Below are positions 1 to 10,371 of a stretch of DNA of 10,371 bases, one piece after another. The notes under the pieces are model-generated. The model was not told the DNA's origin and ran no database searches. It saw only the letters and a list, made by a program, of their open reading frames with translations. The stretch spans positions 1-10,371 of the forward strand of contig CAMVBP010000057.1 in the NCBI GenBank assembly GCA_947165795.1, read 5' to 3'. Position numbers and translations under genes: made by a program. This DNA is from an uncultured Treponema sp. GTDB lineage: Bacteria > Spirochaetota > Spirochaetia > Treponematales > Treponemataceae. Numbering within the stretch: position 1 is the first letter of the stretch; each line of letters opens with the position of its first letter.

Positions 1-698
1 TACGCGACCTTTGGGAAATGTACACTCACCTGGCAGAACGCAAGGGCTGGAAAACAGAAACAATGGAAGCTCAGGAAACTGAAGTTGGCGGCTTTAACAA
101 AATCGTAACTTCTATCAGCGGAAAATTTGTTTACGGAACTTTGCGCTGGGAATCTGGTGTACACCGCGTTCAGCGTGTTCCTCAGACAGAAAGCCAGGGA
201 CGCCTTCAGACTTCTACTGCTACTGTTGCCGTTTTGCCGGAAGCAGAAGAAACAGAAATTGAAATTAAACCGGGCGATGTTCGTGTTGACGTTATGCGCG
301 CCGGTGGACCTGGCGGACAGTGTGTAAATACAACTGACTCTGCAGTTCGTCTTACTCATATTCCAACAGGTCTTGTTGTTATTCAGCAGGATGAAAAGTC
401 TCAGATTAAGAATAAGGAAAAGGCCTTCCGCGTACTCCGCGCCCGCCTCTTTGATCTTGAAGAAAGCAAAAAGCAGGAAGAACGCGCCGCAGCACGTTCA
501 AGCATGGTTGGTTCGGGAGCTCGTTCTGAAAAAATCAGAACTTACAACTTCCCTCAGGACCGCGTAACAGACCACCGCATTAATCTTTCGCTCCATAATT
601 TGCCGGGCTTTATGATGGGAAATATGGATGAAATGCTTGATGCTCTGAACGTTTACGCAAAAGAAGAACAGCTGGCCGCAGACATTACAGAACTCTAA
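1..698 (+). CDS. prfA: Peptide chain release factor 1 (RF1), 5' end cut off by the window
   Basis: RF1 reads UAA and UAG in the ribosomal A site and triggers hydrolysis of peptidyl-tRNA. The reading frame is open from base 3, and 231 residues are visible. Against a usual length near 360, about 125-130 N-terminal residues lie upstream. The PxT anticodon-like tripeptide is Pro-Gln-Thr at 180-188, which marks RF1; RF2 would have SPF. The catalytic GGQ is at 312-320, followed by Cys and then VNTTDSAVR. The C-terminal block with RTYNFPQ and RVTDHR is intact. One oddity is that the loop after PxT reads GRLQTS where class I release factors normally have GR(I/R)HTS, so the stop-codon-contacting His is Gln (codon 207-209). 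In many bacteria prmC, which methylates the GGQ Gln, follows prfA; it does not here. The ATG at base 18 is internal and is not the start. Identity is very secure. Confidence 0.97.
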
Positions 699-702
699 TC
701 CA

Positions 703-724
703 TTGCCACGCTCCTGCGGGGCAA
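703..724 (+). repeat. Hairpin in the prfA downstream spacer, with an alternative pairing partner
   Basis: TTGCC and GGCAA pair, then an A-G mismatch, then CGC pairs with GCG around a TCCT loop. The hairpin starts 4 bases after the prfA stop. It is followed by a run of A rather than T, so it is not a standard intrinsic terminator on this strand, and on the minus strand the T run comes before the stem. Part of the same stem, TGCGGGG at 715-721, can instead pair perfectly with CCCCGCA at 743-749, giving a mutually exclusive structure. The function is unknown; mRNA 3'-end stabilisation or a dispersed repeat are both possible. Confidence 0.45.
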
Positions 725-769
725 AAAAATCTTCAACTAATCCCCCGCAACATCCCGATAATAAATTAA

Positions 770-1417
770 ATGAAAAGAATATTTTATATTCATTTATTTT
801 TCTTTTATATTCTCTCGTTTAGTTTCGCGCAAAAAATTACAATGCCAAAAACGGCACAAACCGTAGATCCGTTTGAAGCCGCAGGCATTAAAAGACAGGA
901 ACCTCTTGTCCCAAACTGGTGGACACTAATTATTTACCGTCCAGAAAACAGCGAAGGCATGAACGATATAAGATGCTTTTTAAAAATTGAAGACGCAGAA
1001 ACAAAAGAAGACGTTACGGCAACAGCTGCTAAAATCGGTTATCAATATGTTGTAGATGTTCCTAAAGGAAAAGAGACAGATCCGCGTTCCATTGCTTCAA
1101 TATTTAACGAACCGGAAATTCCACTTTACACTTATAAAAAAACACCATTCTTAAGCGGCGGAATGGCAATGTATTTATATATAAAAAAAGGAAAATATAA
1201 TTTTACCTTTACTACACCAAAAGATAAAACCTATGATTTTCCTTGCGATAATACAGAAGACTGGGAATCTAATACTTTTTATTACGACACCTCAAATCCA
1301 ACAAACGTAATATTTGTTTTTCCGGAAGCAAATGACAACGGTTTTTACACCGGCCGCTGGTACATAGATTACAAGGCGCCGAAATTCTATAAATTCACAA
1401 AACCAAAGCAGCAGTAA
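770..1417 (+). CDS. Small exported protein of unknown function
   Basis: I do not recognise the family. The 215-residue product begins MKR followed by an aromatic-rich hydrophobic stretch (residues 4-19) and ends its leader at Ser-Phe-Ala before Gln21. This is a plausible signal peptidase I site. There is no lipobox Cys, so a lipoprotein is unlikely. The mature part is about 195 residues, rich in Tyr, Phe, Trp and Lys. It has WW at 50-51, two Cys (69 and 159) that could form a disulfide outside the cytoplasm, and a strand-rich middle (about 132-150) ending in a Lys-rich tail. This suggests a beta-sandwich periplasmic or surface protein, but that is inference. The ATG start has no clear Shine-Dalgarno sequence. 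The gene begins 71 bases after prfA and ends in tandem TAA TAA codons, 8 bases before the end of the convergent ABC gene. Coding status is supported by length, leader structure and codon use similar to its neighbours. Confidence 0.82.
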   Translation: MKRIFYIHLFFFYILSFSFAQKITMPKTAQTVDPFEAAGIKRQEPLVPNWWTLIIYRPENSEGMNDIRCFLKIEDAETKEDVTATAAKIGYQYVVDVPKGKETDPRSIASIFNEPEIPLYTYKKTPFLSGGMAMYLYIKKGKYNFTFTTPKDKTYDFPCDNTEDWESNTFYYDTSNPTNVIFVFPEANDNGFYTGRWYIDYKAPKFYKFTKPKQQ

Positions 1418-1428
1418 TAATTATTCTG

Positions 1429-3393
1429 CTATTCATCCAAAGAAATTTTATTTCCTGTATAAAGGAAGTAGTATCTTCCTTTGGCGGCAATTAACTGCTC
1501 ATGCGAACCGCGTTCAATAATTTTTCCATGCTCCAGAACAATAATTTCATCTGCATTTCTTACTGTAGAAAGACGGTGGGCAATTACAAAAGTTGTTCTT
1601 CCCTTCATAAGTGAATCCATTCCATCTTCAATAAGCTTTTCAGTTCTTGTATCAATAGAAGAAGTTGCTTCGTCCAAAATTAATACCGGTGGATTTGCTA
1701 CGGCTGCGCGTGCAATTGCAAGAAGCTGTCTTTGCCCCTGACTAAGGCTGGCGCCATCACCGGTAATTACAGTATCATAACCTTTTTCAAGATGATTTAT
1801 AAAATTATCTGCATTTGCAAGTTTTGCAGCTTCGTAAACCTGAGAATTACTTGCTTCAAGATTTCCATAACGAATATTTTCACGAATAGTTCCTGTAAAC
1901 AAATGTGTATTCTGCTGAACCATTCCAAGCGATTTTCTTAAAGATGATTTTGCAATTTCGTTAAGCGGAATTCCATCATAAGTAATTGTTCCGCATTCCT
2001 GAGGAACATCATAAAATCTTGAAAGAAGATTTATGGTAGTTGTTTTTCCGGAACCTGTAGAACCGACAAGGGCAATTTTCTGTCCAGGCTTTGCATGAAT
2101 ACAAATGTCATGAAGAATTGTTTTTTCTTTTTTATAACCGAATGTTACATGATCAAAAACAACTTCGCCTTTTAGCTGATGCAAGGAATTATCTACAGGA
2201 TTTTTCCATGCCCATTCTCCCGTATAAGCATAAGACTGAACAAGCTTTCTTTCGCCGGAATTTGTAAGTGCTTCATAAGCATTTACAAGCGTATACTTTC
2301 CTTCATCAATTTCCGGTTCTTCATCAATTACTGCAAAAATTCTTTCCGCGCCGGCAAGTGCATTCAATACACTGTTTGCCTGCATTCCCATCATGGAAAT
2401 AGGCTGACTGAAGCTTCTTGTATATTGTAAAAAAGCTGCAATTGTTCCCAAATCAAGAACACCAATAAACCAGTTGGAAGTCTGCGCAGTGTTAAAGCCT
2501 GCAATCATAAGAACTGCGGCAATTATTGCAACAATCGCATACTGCATATGACTCATATTATTCATAACAGGGCCCATCAGACCTCCGTAAGTCATGGCGG
2601 CAGTTCCAGCCTTGCGAAGATTTGAATTTAATTCTTCAAAGCGCTGCTTTGCCTTTGGTTCGTAATTGAATACTTTTACAACCTTTTGTCCTTCAATCAT
2701 TTCTTCTATAAAACCGTTAAGCTGGCCAACACATTTCTGATTTTCGCGGAAAGCGGCAGCTGAACGTTTTCCTATTAAAGAAATAAGCAGACTTATTAAA
2801 AACATTGAAAGAATCATTATTAAGGTAAGAAGCGGGCTTAAAATAACCATCATAATAAAAACTGCAATTACAGTTATTATTGAAGAAAACAGCTGAGGAA
2901 TTGTCTGGCTCATCATTTCGCGAAGAGTGTCCGTATCGTTTGTAAAGCGCGACATTAATTCACCGTGAGTATGAGAGTCGTAATATTTTATAGGAAGCTT
3001 TTCCAGCTTTGTAAACAAATCAACTCGAATATTGTATAGAAGATTTGTTGAAATATAGAGCATTATCCGGCCGTTGCACCAGGAAGCAAATGCACCGACA
3101 AGAAAAACACACATAACTCCCAGAATCATAAAACCAAAGTTTTTTATTCCAAGAGCTATTTCCGGAGTAACATTTCCTGCCAGAAGGAATTTTTCCAGGA
3201 GAGGAAGTACAAATTTATTTAAGGCAATTTTTGTAAACATACCTCCGGCAACAGAAGCACCGGAATTTACGAGCACGCATAAAAACACAAGAATCCACAG
3301 GGATTTAAATTTCCCCATATATTCAATTATTCTTCTGATTGTCTTTTTTGTATCCTTAGGTTTTCCAAATCCTTTAGGTTTCATAGGTGGCAT
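1429..3393 (-). CDS. ABC exporter half-transporter, catalytically intact subunit of a heterodimer (TM288-like)
   Basis: This is a type IV (ABCB-like) exporter half of 654 residues: a six-helix transmembrane domain (about 28-340), a linker, then an ATPase domain (about 410-654). Walker A is GSTGSGKT at 444-451, the Q-loop Gln is near 494, Walker B LILDE ends with catalytic Glu575, and the switch His is 606. The signature reads LSQGQ (550-554) instead of LSGGQ. In heterodimers of this type that change falls in the composite site completed by the partner's degenerate residues. An extra segment of about 35 residues (about 366-400, with TLVNAYEAL and GEWAWKNP) sits between the membrane and ATPase domains. 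I chose the ATG at 3393 because AAGGAG lies 9 bases upstream; a TTG at 3468 would add 25 residues of spacer translation and lacks such a site. The gene lies 87 bases downstream of its partner. The substrate cannot be read from sequence; drug, lipid or peptide export are options. Confidence 0.93.
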   Translation of the reverse strand: MPPMKPKGFGKPKDTKKTIRRIIEYMGKFKSLWILVFLCVLVNSGASVAGGMFTKIALNKFVLPLLEKFLLAGNVTPEIALGIKNFGFMILGVMCVFLVGAFASWCNGRIMLYISTNLLYNIRVDLFTKLEKLPIKYYDSHTHGELMSRFTNDTDTLREMMSQTIPQLFSSIITVIAVFIMMVILSPLLTLIMILSMFLISLLISLIGKRSAAAFRENQKCVGQLNGFIEEMIEGQKVVKVFNYEPKAKQRFEELNSNLRKAGTAAMTYGGLMGPVMNNMSHMQYAIVAIIAAVLMIAGFNTAQTSNWFIGVLDLGTIAAFLQYTRSFSQPISMMGMQANSVLNALAGAERIFAVIDEEPEIDEGKYTLVNAYEALTNSGERKLVQSYAYTGEWAWKNPVDNSLHQLKGEVVFDHVTFGYKKEKTILHDICIHAKPGQKIALVGSTGSGKTTTINLLSRFYDVPQECGTITYDGIPLNEIAKSSLRKSLGMVQQNTHLFTGTIRENIRYGNLEASNSQVYEAAKLANADNFINHLEKGYDTVITGDGASLSQGQRQLLAIARAAVANPPVLILDEATSSIDTRTEKLIEDGMDSLMKGRTTFVIAHRLSTVRNADEIIVLEHGKIIERGSHEQLIAAKGRYYFLYTGNKISLDE

Positions 3394-3402
3394 ATTTTCA
3401 TA

Positions 3403-3408
3403 CTCCTT
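3403..3408 (-). promoter_or_regulatory. Ribosome binding site of the second ABC subunit
   Basis: On the minus strand the sequence is AAGGAG, 9 bases before the ATG at 3393. It decides the start of this gene in favour of the Met that opens MPPMKPKG, rather than the longer TTG-initiated frame. Confidence 0.8.
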
Positions 3409-3427
3409 ATATTCACCGCGATTTTTT

Positions 3428-3445
3428 TTACGCACGGCTGCGCAA
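3428..3445 (-). repeat. Hairpin in the spacer between the two ABC genes
   Basis: In minus-strand RNA, UUGCGCA and UGCGUAA form a 7-pair stem with one G-U wobble and a GCCG loop, followed by an A run. It lies about 35 bases before the start of the second ABC gene. It has no following U tract, so it should not terminate transcription. It may affect mRNA processing or stability between the two subunits, or be part of a dispersed repeat also seen near 703-750. Confidence 0.4.
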
Positions 3446-3480
3446 TAAAACAGTTTTGTCCCCCGCAAAAGGGAATTAAC

Positions 3481-5229
3481 TTAAGATAAATCGGCGTCTC
3501 CGCTTCCCTGCTGCTGAGATTCAAATACCTCTTTATAAATCCTGTTGGATTTTAAAAGCTCGTCATGATTTCCTATTCCGCAGATTTTTCCGTCATCAAG
3601 AACTACAATCATATCTGCTTCTTTTACCGAAGATATTCTCTGTGCAATTATAATTTTTGTTGTTTCAGGAGCAATTTCTTTTAACGCTGTGCGAATACGT
3701 GTTTCTGTTGCAGTATCTACTGCCGAAGTGCTGTCATCAAGAATAAGCACCTTTGGATTTTTTAATAAAGCACGCGCAATACAAAGCCTCTGCTTCTGTC
3801 CGCCGGAAACATTTACTCCACCCTGACCAAGTTCAGTTTCGTAACCGTCTGTAAAAGAAGTGATAAATGAATGAGCATCGCTTGCTTTACAGGCCGCTTC
3901 TATCTGCTCTTGAGTTGCATTTTCGTTTCCCCACAAAAGATTTTCTTTTATAGTTCCGCTGAACAAAACATTTTTCTGAAGGACCATGGCAACAGCATCA
4001 CGAAGAACTTTAATATCATATTTTCTTATATCTACTCCGCCCAAAAGAATTTGTCCTGAAGAAACATCATAAAGTCGAGGCAAAAGAGAAACCAGCGTTG
4101 TTTTTGATGAACCTGTTCCACCAATTATTCCAATAACAGAACCACCGGGAATTTCAAAATTGATATTCTTTAAAACAAGATTATCTACATTTTTGCCATA
4201 GCAGAAATTTACGTTCTCAAATTTTATTGAACTGTCCTTTATATTTAAAACAGGATTATCGCAATTTGCAATATCAGGAACTTCATCCAGAACTTCTATA
4301 ATACGATGATTAGAAGCCTGAACCATTACAAGAGAAACGAACACCATGCCAAGCATCATCATTGAAGAAAGAACCTGTGTTACATAAGTAAAGAAGCTGA
4401 TAAGTTCACCGGACTGCATTGTTCCAAAAATAACCTGCTTGCCGCCAAACCACATAACAGCAATCATCGCGCTGTACATTACAATCTGTAAAAGCGGCAT
4501 TAAAAGGATGATTAATTTTTCTGCATGAGCCTGAGCCTTCTTTACATCTTCTGCTGCTTTTTTAAATTTATCTTCTTCGAAGGACTGCCTTACATAAGCT
4601 TTTACAATTCTTATTCCGATCAGGTTTTCCTGAATTGCTCCGTTCATTACGTCAAACTTTTTCATCATTTTTTCAAAACGTGGAAAAGCTAAAATAGAAA
4701 TTAATATAATTCCCAGGGCAATAACAGGAATCGCAATTAAAAACAACATGGCCATTTTTGAATTCAAACGGAATGCCATAATTGTTCCTGCAATCATCAT
4801 AAACGGAGAACGCACGCACATATGAATAAGCATTCTGTATACATTCTGTGCCATATTCACATCGGTTGTAAGACGGGTTACAAGAGAAGCTGTACTGAAT
4901 TTGTCGATATTTGCAAACGAGAAAGTCTGAATCTTATTATAGAGGCGTTTTCGTAAATTATAACCGAAGCCCTGTGCCGCAACTGTAGAAAATCTGGTTC
5001 CAAGCATTCCGCAGCACAAAGAAATAATTGCCAGTGCAACCATTGTAAGTCCGTAACGAATTACAAACGGAAGATCGCTGTTATAAATTCCTTCATCAAT
5101 AATTTTTGCCATAATAAATGGAATAATAACTTCCATTACAACTTCTCCAATCATTGCAATTGGAGACAGGACTGTATTCACAACATATTTTTTTTCCAGT
5201 CCCGAAACAAGCTTTCTTACTGTAGACAT
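3481..5229 (-). CDS. ABC exporter half-transporter, subunit with degenerate ATP site (TM287-like)
   Basis: A 582-residue ABCB-type half-exporter with membrane helices over about 15-305 and an ATPase domain from about 335. Walker A is GGTGSSKT (370-377), with Ser in place of the last Gly. The Q-loop Gln is 418 and the signature VSGGQ (474-478) is canonical. Walker B ends Asp498-Asp499, so the catalytic Glu is Asp, and the switch His is Gln530. Asp plus Gln is the known pattern of the noncatalytic subunit in heterodimers such as TM287/TM288, where one ATP site binds but barely hydrolyses. Its intact signature would complete the active site of the product encoded at 1429-3393, and that partner's altered signature would complete this degenerate site. 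The pair is therefore complementary. The ATG at 5229 opens MSTVRKLVSG; no strong Shine-Dalgarno sequence is visible. It follows the DUF4230-type gene by 41 bases, suggesting co-transcription. Confidence 0.94.
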   Translation of the reverse strand: MSTVRKLVSGLEKKYVVNTVLSPIAMIGEVVMEVIIPFIMAKIIDEGIYNSDLPFVIRYGLTMVALAIISLCCGMLGTRFSTVAAQGFGYNLRKRLYNKIQTFSFANIDKFSTASLVTRLTTDVNMAQNVYRMLIHMCVRSPFMMIAGTIMAFRLNSKMAMLFLIAIPVIALGIILISILAFPRFEKMMKKFDVMNGAIQENLIGIRIVKAYVRQSFEEDKFKKAAEDVKKAQAHAEKLIILLMPLLQIVMYSAMIAVMWFGGKQVIFGTMQSGELISFFTYVTQVLSSMMMLGMVFVSLVMVQASNHRIIEVLDEVPDIANCDNPVLNIKDSSIKFENVNFCYGKNVDNLVLKNINFEIPGGSVIGIIGGTGSSKTTLVSLLPRLYDVSSGQILLGGVDIRKYDIKVLRDAVAMVLQKNVLFSGTIKENLLWGNENATQEQIEAACKASDAHSFITSFTDGYETELGQGGVNVSGGQKQRLCIARALLKNPKVLILDDSTSAVDTATETRIRTALKEIAPETTKIIIAQRISSVKEADMIVVLDDGKICGIGNHDELLKSNRIYKEVFESQQQGSGDADLS

Positions 5230-5270
5230 AATTTAAAAGTTATAAAAATATAATAATAAATTCAAGTCGG

Positions 5271-5963
5271 CTAAATAAAAATTACTTCGTCAAAACCAAT
5301 TCCAAGCATAAACTGTTTTATAATGCGTTTAGCGTATTCTTCGCTCTCTCTAAGAATGCCTTCATCGATCATGCCTTCTGCCGCGGCAATTCTTGCAGCG
5401 TTTATTTCATCCATTATTTCCTGCGTAGTAATAGGAACAAAAATACTCTGTTTGTCATCAAAAATTTCCTGCTTAACAATTTCGTTTCCAAGAATTTCTG
5501 CGGCCGGTAAATGAATCTTTACGGAATTATCTGCTTCGTTTATCTGATAAGATATTTCTGTAAAATCTGCAATTCCAACACGGATTATTCCCGAATATTT
5601 TATAATACTGTAGCTTTTTGCAAAGCCCGAAGTCTTTTTAAGGGAAATAATATCACTGTAACGATATTTGCTTGTTACAAGCTCCTGACAAAAAGAAAGC
5701 TGACGGTCAATCAGTGCCGCCTTAGATTCAGATTTTGTTTCAAAAAAGTCAGAAAAATGCCGCGAAGCAAACCAGAAAGTTCCGCAGCCTAAAATGAAAA
5801 TTACAATAATAGTTACAATCCTAAGCACGACACGGGTAAAAATCGGATGCTTTTTTGTGCGCTCAGAACGGTTTCTTACAGACTCTGCCTTTTTTAAAAG
5901 TCCGTTATTGCCGGCTTTTTCAGTTGATTTATCTTTCATACAAATATTATACACGTTTACCAT
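5271..5963 (-). CDS. Membrane-anchored DUF4230-type protein of unknown function
   Basis: The product is up to 230 residues: a basic cytoplasmic N-terminus (about 9-43), one membrane helix (about 44-66), and an outward-facing domain (about 85-230). The SKYRYSDI, IKYSGIIRVGI, LPAAEIL and late Arg/Glu-rich amphipathic helix pattern resembles the DUF4230 family as I know it. That family is found near the membrane in many bacteria and has no assigned function. The call is from pattern recall, not a search. The start is uncertain. The ATG at 5963 has no Shine-Dalgarno sequence; the next in-frame ATG at 5939 also lacks one, but a TATAAT at 5946-5951 (minus) lies just upstream of it, which would fit a leaderless start giving 222 residues. 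It heads the operon with the two ABC exporter genes and is divergent from hflK, so it may work with the exporter or share its regulation. Confidence 0.85.
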   Translation of the reverse strand: MVNVYNICMKDKSTEKAGNNGLLKKAESVRNRSERTKKHPIFTRVVLRIVTIIVIFILGCGTFWFASRHFSDFFETKSESKAALIDRQLSFCQELVTSKYRYSDIISLKKTSGFAKSYSIIKYSGIIRVGIADFTEISYQINEADNSVKIHLPAAEILGNEIVKQEIFDDKQSIFVPITTQEIMDEINAARIAAAEGMIDEGILRESEEYAKRIIKQFMLGIGFDEVIFI

Positions 5964-5968
5964 ATTTT

Positions 5969-5998
5969 TTGTTGTTTTTTTTATATATTTTTTATATT
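5969..5998 (+). promoter_or_regulatory. Possible promoter of the hflKC operon in the divergent spacer
   Basis: TTGTTG (5969-5974) and TATATT (5993-5998) are spaced 18 bases apart, placing a start of transcription near 6005, just before the hflK ribosome binding site. The spacer is almost pure A/T, so the match is weak evidence. On the opposite strand TATAAT at 5951-5946 is a possible -10 for the DUF4230 gene, but its -35 position is poor (CAACAA). Confidence 0.35.
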
Positions 5999-6007
5999 TT
6001 TAAAAAT

Positions 6008-6012
6008 GGAGG
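6008..6012 (+). promoter_or_regulatory. Ribosome binding site of hflK
   Basis: GGAGG lies 7 bases before the ATG at 6020. It fixes the start at MEDESKIQ and excludes the 55-codon upstream extension to 5855, which would run back through the divergent promoter region and into the opposite-strand gene. Confidence 0.85.
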
Positions 6013-6019
6013 ACTTAAC

Positions 6020-6985
6020 ATGGAAGACGAGTCAAAAATTCAAAAAAAGCGTGTAAAAAAGACATTTACACCGGCAATCCTAATCTGGCTGATTATTATT
6101 GGCCTTGCAGTAATCGCAGGTTTTTCAAGTTTTTATATTGTAGATGAAACTGAAAACGTAGTTGTAACCCGATTTGGAAAATACACACAGACTGTAGGTT
6201 CAGGACTTCATGCTAAACTTCCATTTGGAATTGATAAAGCATATAACGTTCCTGTAAAAGTTGTTCAGACAGAACAGTTTGGATTTAAAACTGTAAAAGC
6301 CGGACGCAACAATGAATACAAAAACAATATCGGAACAGAAAGCACAATGCTTACAGGCGACTTAAATATTGTTGATGTTGAATGGATTATTCAGTACAGA
6401 ATTGTAGATCCTAAACAGTGGCTTTTTGGAGTTTATGAAAAGGAACAGACTATCCGCGATATTTCACGTTCCGTAATTAACACTCTTGTAGGCGACCGCG
6501 CAATTCTCGACGTTATGGGAAGTGAGCGAACAAATATTGAAACACTTGCCCTTGATATGATGAATGAAAACTTTACTCAGCTTGGGCTTGGAATTAGTGT
6601 AATTGCAGTAAAGCTTCAGAATATTGTTCCTCCCAGCGGAGTTCAGGATGCTTTCGAAGATGTAAACAAGGCTATTCAGGATATGAATCGTTTTATAAAT
6701 GAAGGAAAAGAAGCCTATAATGCAGAAATTCCAAAGGCACAGGGAGAAGCAGACCGACAGCTTCAGGTAGCAGAAGGTTATGCTGCAGAACGTGTAAACA
6801 TGGCAAAAGGTGATGTAGCCCGATTCAATGCAGTTTACGAAGAATATAAGCGTTCACCAAAAGTAACAAGAGAACGAATTTATCTTGAAACTATGAATGA
6901 AATTTTTGGTTCAGAAACAAAACCGGAACTTATCGACAGTGAACTGAATAATGTTCTTCCTATCAAAAATTTAAAGGCTAACTAG
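6020..6985 (+). CDS. hflK: HflK, SPFH-family regulator of membrane proteolysis
   Basis: HflK pairs with HflC in a membrane-anchored SPFH/prohibitin complex which, in E. coli, encloses the FtsH protease and restrains its access to membrane substrates. The product is 321 residues: a short basic N-terminus, one membrane helix (about 18-40), the SPFH domain starting at VVVTRFGKY (48-56), then a long helical region (about 210-275). The segment with MLTGD and VEWIIQYR (110-127) and TRERIYLETMNEI (283-295) are HflK hallmarks that distinguish it from HflC. It is shorter than E. coli HflK (419), lacking the Gly-rich cytoplasmic N-terminus and the long C-terminal tail. It is first in a three-gene operon; hflC follows after 15 bases. 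FtsH is not encoded nearby. Confidence 0.94.
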   Translation: MEDESKIQKKRVKKTFTPAILIWLIIIGLAVIAGFSSFYIVDETENVVVTRFGKYTQTVGSGLHAKLPFGIDKAYNVPVKVVQTEQFGFKTVKAGRNNEYKNNIGTESTMLTGDLNIVDVEWIIQYRIVDPKQWLFGVYEKEQTIRDISRSVINTLVGDRAILDVMGSERTNIETLALDMMNENFTQLGLGISVIAVKLQNIVPPSGVQDAFEDVNKAIQDMNRFINEGKEAYNAEIPKAQGEADRQLQVAEGYAAERVNMAKGDVARFNAVYEEYKRSPKVTRERIYLETMNEIFGSETKPELIDSELNNVLPIKNLKAN

Positions 6986-6986
6986 G

Positions 6987-6993
6987 AAGGGGG
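6987..6993 (+). promoter_or_regulatory. Ribosome binding site of hflC
   Basis: AAGGGGG sits directly after the hflK stop, 7 bases before the hflC ATG. This is the strongest purine-rich site in the window and argues for robust independent initiation on hflC within the operon. Confidence 0.7.
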
Positions 6994-7000
6994 TAAAAAA

Positions 7001-7987
7001 ATGTCAAAAGCTATGAGAAAATTTTTCGGCTGGTTAATTGCTATAGTTATTTTACTGATTGTTTTCCTGTTTATGGGACCTTTCTATATAGTAAATGAAG
7101 GAAATCAGGTTGTTGTTACCCGCTTTGGTAGTATTGTAGATACTCACACAGATTCAGGACTTTACTTTAAAATTCCTTTCCTTGATAAAGTAACAACTTA
7201 TCCAAAACTTGTACTTTCTCTGGATGGAGATGAACAGCGAATTCCTACTAAAGAAAATCAGTTTATTATTGTAGATACAACTTCAAGATGGAGAATAAGT
7301 GATCCTGCAAAATTCTATCAGAGTCTTACAAATCTTGATAACGCCTACAACAAACTTTCTGATATTATTGATTCTTCATGCAGAACTGTAATTACTCAGA
7401 ACAGACTTTCTGAAATTGTAAGAAGTTCAAATATTATAAATGAATCTTCTACAAATACAGACGAAGAAAATGAAGAAGCAAAGGAAATTGTTGAACTTGT
7501 AAACGAAGCTGCTTCCAACGAAATTGTTACAAAAGGAAGAAGTGAACTCTGCCGCCTTATGACAGTAGAAGCAAACAAACTTGTTCCGGAATATGGTATT
7601 GATTTGATTGATATTGTTCCGCGCCAGATTAAATATTCAGATGAACTGACTGAATCTGTATATAATAGAATGATTAAGGACAGAAATCAGGTTGCACAGG
7701 CATACCGTTCTCTTGGAGAAGGTAAAAAAGCTGAATGGCTTGGTAAGCTCGAAAGCGATAAAAGAACAATTGCTTCTGAAGCATACCGCAAAAGCGAGGA
7801 AATAAAAGGTAACGCAGATGCAGAAGCTGCAGCCATTTATTCACAGGCCTACAACCGCGATCCTGAATTCTATATGTTCTGGAAGAGTATGGAATCTTAT
7901 AAAGCAAATTTAAAGGATTACCCTGCTACTTACAGTACAGACATGGATTATTTTGATTATCTTTACAGCCCGGATGGAAAGCGATGA
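7001..7987 (+). CDS. hflC: HflC, SPFH-family partner of HflK
   Basis: HflC is the second subunit of the HflKC complex. The product is 328 residues, close to E. coli HflC (334). The layout is a short N-terminus, one membrane helix (about 9-28), the SPFH domain from VVVTRFGSIV (37-46), a coiled-coil region (about 215-280) and the diagnostic DPEFYMFWKSMESY (287-300) near the C-terminus. The DTTSRWRI and DPAKFYQS segments (92-107) are also typical. An acidic, Ser/Asn/Glu-rich stretch (about 147-172) falls where the family normally has the variable loop with the Arg/Glu-rich helix. A strong ribosome binding site precedes it. The last codons overlap the next gene: its ATG at 7984 shares four bases (ATGA) with this stop, so the two are probably translationally coupled. 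Confidence 0.95.
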   Translation: MSKAMRKFFGWLIAIVILLIVFLFMGPFYIVNEGNQVVVTRFGSIVDTHTDSGLYFKIPFLDKVTTYPKLVLSLDGDEQRIPTKENQFIIVDTTSRWRISDPAKFYQSLTNLDNAYNKLSDIIDSSCRTVITQNRLSEIVRSSNIINESSTNTDEENEEAKEIVELVNEAASNEIVTKGRSELCRLMTVEANKLVPEYGIDLIDIVPRQIKYSDELTESVYNRMIKDRNQVAQAYRSLGEGKKAEWLGKLESDKRTIASEAYRKSEEIKGNADAEAAAIYSQAYNRDPEFYMFWKSMESYKANLKDYPATYSTDMDYFDYLYSPDGKR

Positions 7988-9672
7988 AACTGATTGAACT
8001 TGTTGATGAACAGTTAAGATTAAATTCACATCTTAATGAATATTCTTTTGGAAAAACAAATTATGAAGCTGCACTGGCACAGGAAGGAAAATTTTGGGAT
8101 GGAAAGAAATTTTCTAACTGGTCATTCAATGATGTTCAATCATTCAACGTAGAAGGCAAAGAAGAAAGATTTGTTTTTTACTGCGGAGATAATCCGCTCG
8201 GTAAGAAATTCAAATCACTGCAGGAATACTTTGAAGAAGGCGGAGAACAGATGTTTTCTGCCGCAAAGCTTATGTGCAAAGTTCTCACAGAAGCTGCAGA
8301 AGAAGAAATAGAAATTCCTAAGGTTGGTCCCGCAGGAATTCTTATTAATTCAGATAATTCCATTCTGTTTATGCCTCAGGATTTATTTATTAATTCTACA
8401 AACGGGCTTTCAAAAACAGAACAATTTTATGCGCAATATGTAATTTTAAATCAGACGCTTTCTGAACTGCCTTCTTTATGTTTTACAAGGGCATGTATTG
8501 CTTACAAAGCACTCACAGGATTTTTCCCGTTCCAGAATGAAGAACTTGTTGAACGCAATTCCGATATTCTGGACCGGAATTTTATGCCTGTTGAATTATG
8601 CATTCAAAACCTGAATCCGCAGCTTGCTAAAGAAATTAACAGAGGCTTAAAACTAAATTCAAATATTGTAAACATTCCGGGAAAAAGAAAAAAAGGAAAA
8701 TCTAACGAAGATTTAACTCCTGTAAAGGAATTTCCTGTAGAACTTTTAGATGAAGCCTGGAAGCTTGCAAAAGAACAGCAGAAGAACGGCAACAAGGAAT
8801 TCGAAGAACGTGCCAGAAATTATATGAAGGCAAAAAAATCACGGATTTCTGCAAAAAGAAAACTCAGAAAAAATTCAATTACAATTGTTGCTGTTTTTAT
8901 TGTTGCTGCAGTTGCCGGTTTAATAACTTTAGATACAGTAAAATCAAAGCAGTCTGAATTCACTTCCAAAGGCTTAAATTCCGAACAGACAATTCAGGCT
9001 TTCTTTTACGGTGTAAATACACAGGCTACAACTCTTCTGGATAATATTTCCAAAGGAAAAAGCTCAAAGCGCTTTATAGATACAGTAAGTCAGGTTTTTG
9101 TTTTAAGCAAACAGCGCGAATCTTACGGTTCAAAAGGATTTGTAACTCCGGAAAACTGGCTTATCTACTCTACTACAGAACAACGCTATAACAATTCAGC
9201 AATCTATGGAATTACAAATTTACGAATTGATGGTTCAAATAAAATTTCCGAGCTTGATGTAAAAATGTCTACATTTAAAGATAAGCCTGAGCCTGTAACA
9301 AAAGAAGGCAATGTAAGCTTATCAAAAGGTTCGGTTTTCGTTCATACTGCAGATTATTATTTTATTCACACAGAAGACGAAGAACATTTCTTCCAGGTAG
9401 AAAAAAGACATTCAACCTTTACGCTTACCTACATTAAAGACAGGTGGATAATAACTGATATTGTTTCCGATGCAGAAGTTCTGGACGTTGACTGCAACAA
9501 ATTCAAATCTGATTATTTCAATGCTTTGACGGAATTTAATTATAACCAGCTTGAAGCCACAGCTTCTTTAAGGGAAAAATACAACTGGCTTCCAACTGAT
9601 TATGCAATGAAAATAGAAAACGACAGACTTATCTGGGAAGCAGAACATCCAATGGAAGTTCTTGGATTCTAA
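7984..9672 (+). CDS. Single-pass membrane protein with a kinase-like (probable pseudokinase) cytoplasmic domain, coupled to hflKC
   Basis: I know no named family for this 562-residue protein. A cytoplasmic part (1-296) ends in a very basic stretch (282-296). One membrane helix (about 298-316) and an outward domain of about 245 residues follow. Residues 62-227 run in the order of a Ser/Thr kinase C-lobe. FYCGDNPLGKKFKSLQEYF resembles the hinge and helix D. GPAGILINSDNSILFMPQ (115-132) resembles the catalytic loop (KPANILI...) and DFG strand. FTRACIAYKALTGFFPF (167-183) resembles helix F with LTGxxPF. LNPQLAKEINRGLKLN (210-225) resembles the final helix. The HRD Asp, catalytic-loop Asn and DFG Asp are all absent, and no Gly-rich loop or VAIK Lys is visible, so it should be inactive. 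The outer domain ends in a strand (FTLTYIKDRWIITDI) loosely like NTF2-fold proteins. The start overlaps the hflC stop (ATGA), suggesting a stoichiometric HflKC partner. The kinase relation is by eye only. Confidence 0.9.
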   Translation: MKLIELVDEQLRLNSHLNEYSFGKTNYEAALAQEGKFWDGKKFSNWSFNDVQSFNVEGKEERFVFYCGDNPLGKKFKSLQEYFEEGGEQMFSAAKLMCKVLTEAAEEEIEIPKVGPAGILINSDNSILFMPQDLFINSTNGLSKTEQFYAQYVILNQTLSELPSLCFTRACIAYKALTGFFPFQNEELVERNSDILDRNFMPVELCIQNLNPQLAKEINRGLKLNSNIVNIPGKRKKGKSNEDLTPVKEFPVELLDEAWKLAKEQQKNGNKEFEERARNYMKAKKSRISAKRKLRKNSITIVAVFIVAAVAGLITLDTVKSKQSEFTSKGLNSEQTIQAFFYGVNTQATTLLDNISKGKSSKRFIDTVSQVFVLSKQRESYGSKGFVTPENWLIYSTTEQRYNNSAIYGITNLRIDGSNKISELDVKMSTFKDKPEPVTKEGNVSLSKGSVFVHTADYYFIHTEDEEHFFQVEKRHSTFTLTYIKDRWIITDIVSDAEVLDVDCNKFKSDYFNALTEFNYNQLEATASLREKYNWLPTDYAMKIENDRLIWEAEHPMEVLGF

Positions 9673-9678
9673 ATTTAC

Positions 9679-9696
9679 ATGGCCGATTACGGCCAT
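9679..9696 (+). terminator. Perfect hairpin after the hflKC operon, possible terminator
   Basis: ATGGCCG and CGGCCAT form a 7-base-pair GC-rich stem with an ATTA loop, starting 7 bases after the stop of the third operon gene. The position fits a transcript end. No T tract follows (next bases TATCCGCTG), so this is either a weak or factor-assisted terminator or a 3' stabilising hairpin. Confidence 0.45.
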
Positions 9697-9731
9697 TATC
9701 CGCTGCCAAAACACAGAACCTCATTTTATTT

Positions 9732-9754
9732 TGACAAAATTTTAATTTTTGTCA
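9732..9754. promoter_or_regulatory. Palindrome abutting the carboxylase promoter, possible operator
   Basis: TGACAAAA (9732-9739) and TTTTGTCA (9747-9754) are perfect 8-base inverted arms separated by 7 A/T bases. The second arm ends directly against the -35 hexamer at 9755. The size and placement suit a dimeric repressor or activator site. It is too A/T-rich and lacks the T tail expected of a terminator. The regulator cannot be identified from sequence. Confidence 0.45.
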
Positions 9755-9783
9755 TTGACACTCTAACACTCTTTTAATATTAT
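9755..9783 (+). promoter_or_regulatory. Near-consensus sigma-70 promoter of the carboxyltransferase gene
   Basis: A perfect -35 TTGACA (9755-9760) is followed by a 17-base spacer and TATTAT (9778-9783, five of six consensus). Transcription should start near 9790, about 23 bases before the ATG. GAGG at 9804-9807 lies 5 bases before the start codon. It is the best promoter in the window. Confidence 0.75.
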
Positions 9784-9812
9784 TAAACCAACAATTATTT
9801 CACGAGGTTATT

Positions 9813-10371
9813 ATGGAATACAATGTTGAAAAACAGCACGCAAAGGGAAAACTTCACGCTATTGAGCGTATCAATGCACTTTGCGACAAAGGAACATTCG
9901 TAGAGACTTATCAGGGTGTTAAGCATAACTGCACAAGCTTTGGAATGGATAAAAAAGATATTCCTTATGATGGTGTAATTACTGGTTTTGGAAAAATAAA
10001 CGGACGTAAAGTTGCTGTTTATGCACAGGACTTTACAATTCAGGGTGGTTCGCTCGGACATATGCACGGCCGCAAAATTGCTGACCTTACAAAAATGGCA
10101 ATCGATGCACGCTGTCCTGTAATTGGAATTAACGACTCGGGTGGAGCCCGCATTCAGGAAGGTGTAGAAGCGCTCGGCGGATACGGTAACGTATTCAACC
10201 AGAACGTTCGCGCTTCCGGTGCCATTCCTCAGATTTCTATCATCGCTGGTCCTTGTGCTGGTGGTGCCGTATATTCACCAGGAATTACAGACTTTATTTT
10301 TACTGTTGATAAGGTTACTCAGATGTTCATTACAGGACCAAAGGTTGTTAAATCTGTAATGTTTATGGATA
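9813..10371 (+). CDS. Biotin-dependent acyl-CoA carboxyltransferase/decarboxylase subunit, 3' end cut off
   Basis: The visible 186 residues match the N-terminal carboxyltransferase domain shared by propionyl-CoA carboxylase beta, methylmalonyl-CoA decarboxylase alpha (MmdA) and related decarboxylases, usually about 510 residues. These move CO2 between biotin and an acyl-CoA. Seen in order are VEKQHAKGKL (5-14), AQDFTIQGGSLGHMHGRK (71-88), GINDSGGARIQEGVEALGGY (105-124) and GPCAGGAVYSP (146-156), the last two carrying the oxyanion-hole glycines that bind the CoA thioester. FITGPKVVKSV (172-182) follows. The protein starts about 20-25 residues later than many homologues. No upstream in-frame start exists (TGA at 9756-9758), and a good promoter and GAGG site precede the ATG, so the short form is real. 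The substrate cannot be fixed here; in an anaerobic spirochaete a role in methylmalonyl-CoA/propionyl-CoA interconversion is likely. Downstream genes (biotin carrier, membrane beta subunit or biotin carboxylase) would decide. Confidence 0.94.
   Translation, partial: MEYNVEKQHAKGKLHAIERINALCDKGTFVETYQGVKHNCTSFGMDKKDIPYDGVITGFGKINGRKVAVYAQDFTIQGGSLGHMHGRKIADLTKMAIDARCPVIGINDSGGARIQEGVEALGGYGNVFNQNVRASGAIPQISIIAGPCAGGAVYSPGITDFIFTVDKVTQMFITGPKVVKSVMFMD

Follow-up and report, generated by a model that had tools for sequence, protein, structure and literature searches.

The third gene of the hflK-hflC operon in an uncultured Treponema sp. (assembly GCA_947165795.1, contig CAMVBP010000057.1, positions 1 to 10,371 of the forward strand; this whole stretch of 10,371 nucleotides is referred to as the window) is predicted from its sequence and from structural models to encode a transmembrane pseudokinase, in which a kinase-fold domain at the N terminus faces the cytoplasm and an NTF2-like domain lies in the periplasm. 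The reading we favour, with moderate confidence, is that of a spirochaete transmembrane pseudokinase scaffold resembling EssB/YukC and carrying an NTF2-like outer domain, which is co-expressed with HflKC in Treponema and constitutes a separate module able to act without HflKC. The third protein is unlikely to be simply a component of the HflKC complex, given that its spirochaete relatives include some without hflKC. The gene and the parts of its product are as follows.

7984..9672, + strand: the third gene, encoding the putative single-pass transmembrane pseudokinase of 562 aa (open reading frame (ORF); homologues; AlphaFold2 (AF2) model and fold search; hhalign with controls)
7984..8664, + strand: cytoplasmic pseudokinase domain, residues 1-227 (AF2 secondary structure; VIA alignment of 1..256 to PknB; hhalign over 60-227)
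8314..8376, + strand: remnant running from the catalytic loop to the DFG position, residues 111-131 (IPKVGPAGILINSDNSILFMP), with HRD lost, Asn replaced by G118 and the DFG Asp by P131 in the hhalign register
8665..8874, + strand: linker and basic helical stalk, residues 228-297 (predicted local distance difference test (pLDDT) below 50 at 228-241; long helix at 271-323; Lys/Arg (K/R) excess ahead of the membrane helix)
8875..8937, + strand: predicted transmembrane helix, approximately residues 298-318 (hydropathy across 88 members; positive-inside pattern)
8956..9669, + strand: predicted extracytoplasmic part, residues 325-562, an NTF2-like domain (~325-500) followed by C-terminal helices (AF2; Foldseek/VIA)

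In the AF2 model, the N-lobe strands of the pseudokinase domain span residues 1-78 and the C-lobe helices residues 79-223, and AF2, Foldseek, VIA and hhalign of the C-lobe with controls all point to a two-lobed kinase fold with helices E, F, G, and H in order; the hhalign controls ruled out a chance match as the source of the kinase likeness. This bears out the first-pass annotation of the window, which had proposed a membrane-anchored pseudokinase and suggested a check of a structural model for kinase C-lobe topology. The third protein matched no Pfam or NCBIfam model at its cut-off, and a PDB search with the single sequence returned one match, a non-kinase at E 1.4. Using the A3 profile of the family, 134 PDB sequences were found at E ≤ 1 (best E 0.001), the best 60 of these 134 all being kinase-domain proteins, and in the genomes the same profile matched the canonical kinases of G003 and G002 at places marked by PF00069. 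A deep member of the family, L183, matched PF00069 itself at E 0.025, below the cut-off. The outer part, modelled alone by AF2, gave a pLDDT of 94.6 and a predicted template modelling score (pTM) of 0.90, and its model has the NTF2 (cystatin-like) alpha+beta fold; the leading Foldseek/VIA rows for this domain were NTF2-like folds of modest strength. A K/R excess N-terminal of the membrane helix was present in 88/88 members (at least 420 residues each, no pair over 95% identical; three shorter fragments and two duplicate readings were left out), in keeping with the extracytoplasmic domain that had been expected after a single membrane helix.

Each of the residues by which an active Hanks-type Ser/Thr kinase is recognized (the HRD Asp, the catalytic-loop Asn, and the DFG Asp) is missing, as had been noticed in the window from its letters, and no HRDLK-like or DFG-like motif occurs in the first 330 residues of any of the 88 members. 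The HRD position reads I-P-K in the hhalign register, residues 115 and 118 are Gly in 63/88 and 60/88 members, respectively, and residue 131 is Pro in 78/88 and Asp in one (column counts). The 88-member columns contain no conserved acidic residue at the former catalytic or metal positions, and the best Lys column before residue 110 reaches 52/88, with an N-lobe register too uncertain to fix the position of the VAIK Lys. Between the DFG position and helix F there appears to be too little sequence to accommodate a complete activation segment. A kinase fold without catalytic residues, conserved as a family, is what marks a pseudokinase, and the A2 profile (built with L040 left out for an internal stop) found matches in 168/195 genomes of one taxonomic family, which rules out a decaying gene. 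Internal stops in the matched frame, seen in ten listed rows (G032, G048, G063, G104, G111, G116, G122, G180, G187, and G193), are taken to reflect assembly errors or local loss. No active-kinase ancestor adjoining hflC was found among the distant members that were read.

This architecture has counterparts in secretion systems. EssB/YukC of type VIIb secretion in Bacillota has a pseudokinase domain described or proposed as an interaction hub (accessible portions of PMC12599244 and PMC13037476), and like the third protein it places a cytosolic N-terminal pseudokinase domain before one membrane helix and a C-terminal outer domain; none of its three catalytic motifs is intact, and its activation loop is shortened (same portions). 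Unlike the NTF2-like alpha+beta domain predicted for the third protein, the outer domain of EssB/YukC is helical. As a relative by sequence, EssB/YukC was rejected, there being no YukC/EssB Pfam match in the members scanned: the window protein (E ≤ 1), three deep members and one hflKC-less member (E ≤ 0.1), and 33 A3 members (E ≤ 0.1). EssB/YukC is not among the best 50 structure matches (Foldseek, VIA), an absence that carries no weight. TraF of plasmid pIP501, from Gram-positive type IV secretion, likewise combines a pseudokinase N-domain, described or proposed as a hub, with one transmembrane (TM) region and an outer domain, and sits in a membrane complex (accessible portion of PMC13037476). 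TraF differs in its helical outer domain, its conjugative plasmid, and its Gram-positive host.

In both fold and profile searches, the cytoplasmic domain was matched best by receptor-type Ser/Thr kinases of the PknB/PASTA kind. PknB has the same order of kinase, TM region, and outer domain, whereas the third protein lacks the catalytic residues and has an NTF2-like domain in place of PASTA. CaMKII also sets an NTF2-like domain behind a kinase-fold domain, and full-length CaMKII was among the Foldseek matches of the whole model, as was the CaMKII hub among those of the outer domain. This likeness is probably convergent, since CaMKII is soluble, active, and eukaryotic, whereas the third protein has a membrane helix between its domains and has lost the catalytic residues.

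By analogy with EssB/YukC, then, the third protein would be a non-catalytic scaffold or relay. Its periplasmic NTF2-like domain may bind a ligand, as a sensor, or oligomerise, and its pseudokinase domain could hold or release a cytoplasmic client via protein-protein contacts. Synthesis of the third protein together with HflKC is expected in Treponema and its near relatives, and the operon that it shares with HflKC in Treponema suggests a common task, probably in membrane-protein quality control; the pseudokinase would still form a module of its own, able to function where HflKC is absent.

The association with hflKC was assessed from the locus in the window, whose other genes and borders are the following.

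6020..6985, + strand: hflK, first gene of the operon (TIGR01933, E 1.4e-93, equivalog model)
7001..7987, + strand: hflC, second gene of the operon (TIGR01932, E 8.1e-94, equivalog model), in ATGA overlap with the third gene
5271..5963, - strand: DUF4230 gene, divergent to hflK and the upstream border of the locus (PF14014, E 4.8e-19); it adjoins the third gene in the hflKC-less loci L075, L080, and L090
9813..10371, + strand: partial carboxyltransferase gene, the downstream border (PF01039, E 2.4e-63); it is the next gene in 11/20 hflKC-less loci read

Where the genes adjoin, the third protein could be a dedicated subunit or modulator of HflKC(-FtsH), its NTF2-like domain in contact with the SPFH cage in the periplasm and its pseudokinase domain recruiting FtsH substrates, a possibility close to what the first-pass annotation had put forward and one that we hold to be unlikely. 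The adjacency on which it rests is extensive, divergent lineages included. Of the 43 loci taken from named records, 41 have hflC immediately upstream, and the other two (L004, L030) begin at a contig end; the relatives with an organism name belong to Treponema or to unnamed Spirochaetales, Spirochaetia, and Spirochaetaceae, and the record titles give rumen or faeces as the source of many. Identity to the window proteins is 33-87% for the third protein and 57-99% for HflK and HflC. The survey of the hflK-hflC-third gene order proposed at the outset gave a similar picture in the family genomes (G handles; completeness values not stated). In the 195 genomes, the third gene occurs with hflC in 125, alone in 43, and hflC alone in 16, with neither found in 11; hflC itself was matched at E ≤ 1e-15 in 141, 138 of them above the cut-off. 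In 113 of the 125 genomes with both genes, the third gene lies downstream of hflC on the same strand within 2.5 kb.

The two genes are also closely spaced. In the window, the start of the third gene (562 codons) lies within the ATGA at the hflC stop, an overlap from which coupled synthesis had been predicted. The overlap is real, but conserved translational coupling is rejected, as the same distance of -4 recurs in just 2/41 relatives. Across these 41 loci, any overlap is seen in 5, a distance of 0-40 bases in 24, of 41-100 in 5, and of more than 100 in 7, so that 29/41 lie within 40 bases, overlaps included. A further point for a subunit comes from S. aureus, where EssB co-purifies with the flotillin FloA, an SPFH protein (accessible portion of PMC5718613); the pairing of an SPFH protein and a transmembrane pseudokinase thus has a precedent. 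The HflKC modulators of FtsH in E. coli share the operon context with the window, and the E. coli complex comprises HflK, HflC, and FtsH in the literature seen in part, the titles and abstract openings of which name no pseudokinase.

Against a subunit of the SPFH/FtsH complex stand, first, the 43 of 168 gene-bearing family genomes without hflC (no match at E ≤ 1e-15), none of which has hflK above the curated cut-off, so that the gene is not confined to genomes with hflK/hflC. Forty-two of the 43 have weaker SPFH matches only, similar to those that occur in G001 and G003 in addition to hflK. G005 has seven hflK-model matches, which include additional SPFH genes on contigs 1 and 3. Neither hflK nor hflC was seen at any of 20 gene-only loci read, two of which (L078, L093) have fewer than 300 bases upstream of the gene. 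The carboxyltransferase gene is next to the third gene in 11 of these loci, as listed above, and two genes on in one (L074), and the DUF4230 gene is present in five (L075, L079, L080, L090, and L091), in three of which it adjoins. Thus, 15/20 retain a border marker (carboxyltransferase within two genes, or DUF4230), with neither nearby in five, and from those that retain one we infer the same locus minus hflKC. The DUF4230 gene may be part of the same function as the pseudokinase gene. FtsH was present in 16/16 genomes tested, 14 of these hflKC-less, and a link of the third protein to FtsH may accordingly exist.

A tree of 88 members was built by a quick method; its root is arbitrary, and 24 of its forks are open. 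In it, the genes without hflKC make up a grade surrounding the clade of the window, which we read as four losses of hflKC, or one loss and one regain; the starred forks alone force two changes. The third gene would therefore have survived repeated loss of hflKC, or one loss and one regain. In the labels of the tree, 16 protein-only rows (P ids) are marked hflC-adjacent without a locus reading, as is L115, whose contig lacks hflC.

Second, the gene has moved. In the remaining 12 of the 125 genomes with both genes, the two lie on different contigs (seven) or far apart on one contig (five), and six of these (G036, G046, G053, G060, G067, and G074) are a single tree branch in which the third gene has been relocated far from hflC or to another long contig. 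Five of the six branch genomes were read, and in G046, G053, G067, and G074 the third gene lies one base ahead of tgt, identified by Pfam in one genome (E 1.8e-150) and elsewhere from similarity, with a split copy in G074; no tgt-like gene was seen beside the third gene in G036. The loci adjoining tgt, which encodes queuine tRNA-ribosyltransferase, are L156, L157, L159, and L160, one clade far from hflC. The 16 genomes with hflC and no detected third gene also weigh against a subunit, with the qualification that the contigs of at least two (L099, L107) stop just after hflC; G029 is unread.

Third, the deeper spirochaetes mostly lack the association. The A3 profile matched 94/296 genomes of the phylum, 73 of them at E ≤ 2e-7 (tallied by hand from the search table; 41 of the 73 were already in the family search), and in the other 21 the match (E 8e-6 to 9e-4) covered just parts of residues 58-315, probably in canonical kinases. 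For the other alignments, A1 comprised 37 of 120 listed proteins and A4 46 of 48 listed pieces (L116 and L121 left out). A member was called in 19 of 20 deeper loci (L197, with no member ORF called, was left out of the neighbour count), of which hflC adjoins in four (L181, L183, L184, and L185), an NFACT gene shares the locus without hflC in ten, and five have neither. By genome, hflC was found in 17/20, adjacent in 4 and elsewhere in 13, and was not found in 3. Given that most deeper loci have no adjoining hflC, the protein's link to hflKC does not hold throughout the phylum. Together with the hflKC-less genomes and the six relocations, this leaves the first-pass interpretation partly supported: the membrane-anchored pseudokinase fold, the missing catalytic residues, the extracytoplasmic domain, and the gene order are upheld, and membership of the SPFH/FtsH complex is not.

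NFACT occurs in 11/20 deeper loci and Memo in 5, both Pfam-named in one locus (L189) and assigned elsewhere by similarity to it. The NFACT (RqcH-type) genes share loci L187, L189, L190, L191, L194-L196, and L198-L200, some of which also have a Memo-like gene, and L196 additionally has Mur-ligase-domain and IPP-transferase genes. Judged by gene content, the NFACT-bearing neighbourhood may be linked to translation quality control. In G441, G376, and G428, hflC and the pseudokinase gene are non-adjacent, ~13-26 kb apart, perhaps a trace of an older neighbourhood. G007 has a second family member at C1:799758-801299 (E 1.7e-85), away from the first.

We consider it very unlikely that the third protein is an allosteric partner or decoy of a canonical PknB-like kinase and FHA system. 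Such a role would fit the canonical PF00069 kinases in 11/17 chosen genomes and the FHA genes in 7/12, near the canonical kinase in six of the seven, as well as the binding of an FHA domain by the YukC pseudokinase domain (accessible portion of PMC13037476). Dependence on either is unsupported, however, as G005, G036, G053, and G067 carry the pseudokinase with no PF00069 match at E ≤ 0.01 and no FHA match at E ≤ 1e-5, and where a genome has both kinase and pseudokinase, they lie at different places.

Little credence is given to a kinase fold turned to other chemistry, such as SelO-type AMPylation or SidJ-type glutamylation, which would make the protein an enzyme and not a scaffold. The former active-site columns that are kept (Gly 115, Gly 118, and Pro 131) could mark a new site; they are, however, Gly, Pro, or hydrophobic, as would be expected for structure, and the columns show neither an N-lobe Lys shared by more than 52/88 members, in an uncertain register, nor the conserved acidic residues sought at the old positions. 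An incidental linkage, with a general envelope-stability protein riding in nearby operons, would suit neighbours that vary by clade (hflKC, tgt, NFACT/Memo) but is highly improbable, as hflKC adjacency recurs on well-separated tree branches and is stabler than chance placement.

As for the remainder of the window, the carboxyltransferase gene may have its own promoter because a near-consensus promoter-like site (11 of 12) lies between it and the third gene at 9755-9783 (+); over the whole promoter scan, 11 sites were found against 12.3 expected by shuffles, so that promoter-like sites are not commoner than in shuffles. No terminator-like site was found on the + strand from 8000 to 9900. Positions 770-1417 (+) encode a protein of 215 aa whose start resembles a signal peptide and which matched no NCBIfam model, and 1429-5229 (-) holds what we take, from motifs, to be two tandem ABC half-transporters of ordinary appearance.

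Transmembrane pseudokinases are already known, and a spirochaete family whose outer domain is NTF2-like is, in the literature searched, undescribed: no description was found in the titles and abstract openings of open-access papers (subscription papers and preprints lay outside the search), and the main text of a 2025 review of bacterial pseudokinase families (PMC12599244) contains neither spiroch-, Treponem- nor NTF2. A broader and distinctly speculative possibility, which we rate as improbable, is a spirochaete membrane pseudokinase system that senses the periplasm via its NTF2-like domain and regulates protein quality control in the cytoplasm purely through contacts, the clade-varying neighbours being outputs of one hub. 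If true, these outputs would include HflKC (membrane proteolysis), NFACT/RqcH-type proteins (stalled ribosomes), and Tgt and IPP transferase (tRNA modification).

The lineages that keep the third gene without hflKC provide a natural experiment on what the protein does alone. Few bacterial transmembrane pseudokinases have been studied, EssB/YukC and TraF among them in the literature seen in part, and the protein predicted here would add a further family, spread through the spirochaetes and with a different outer domain.
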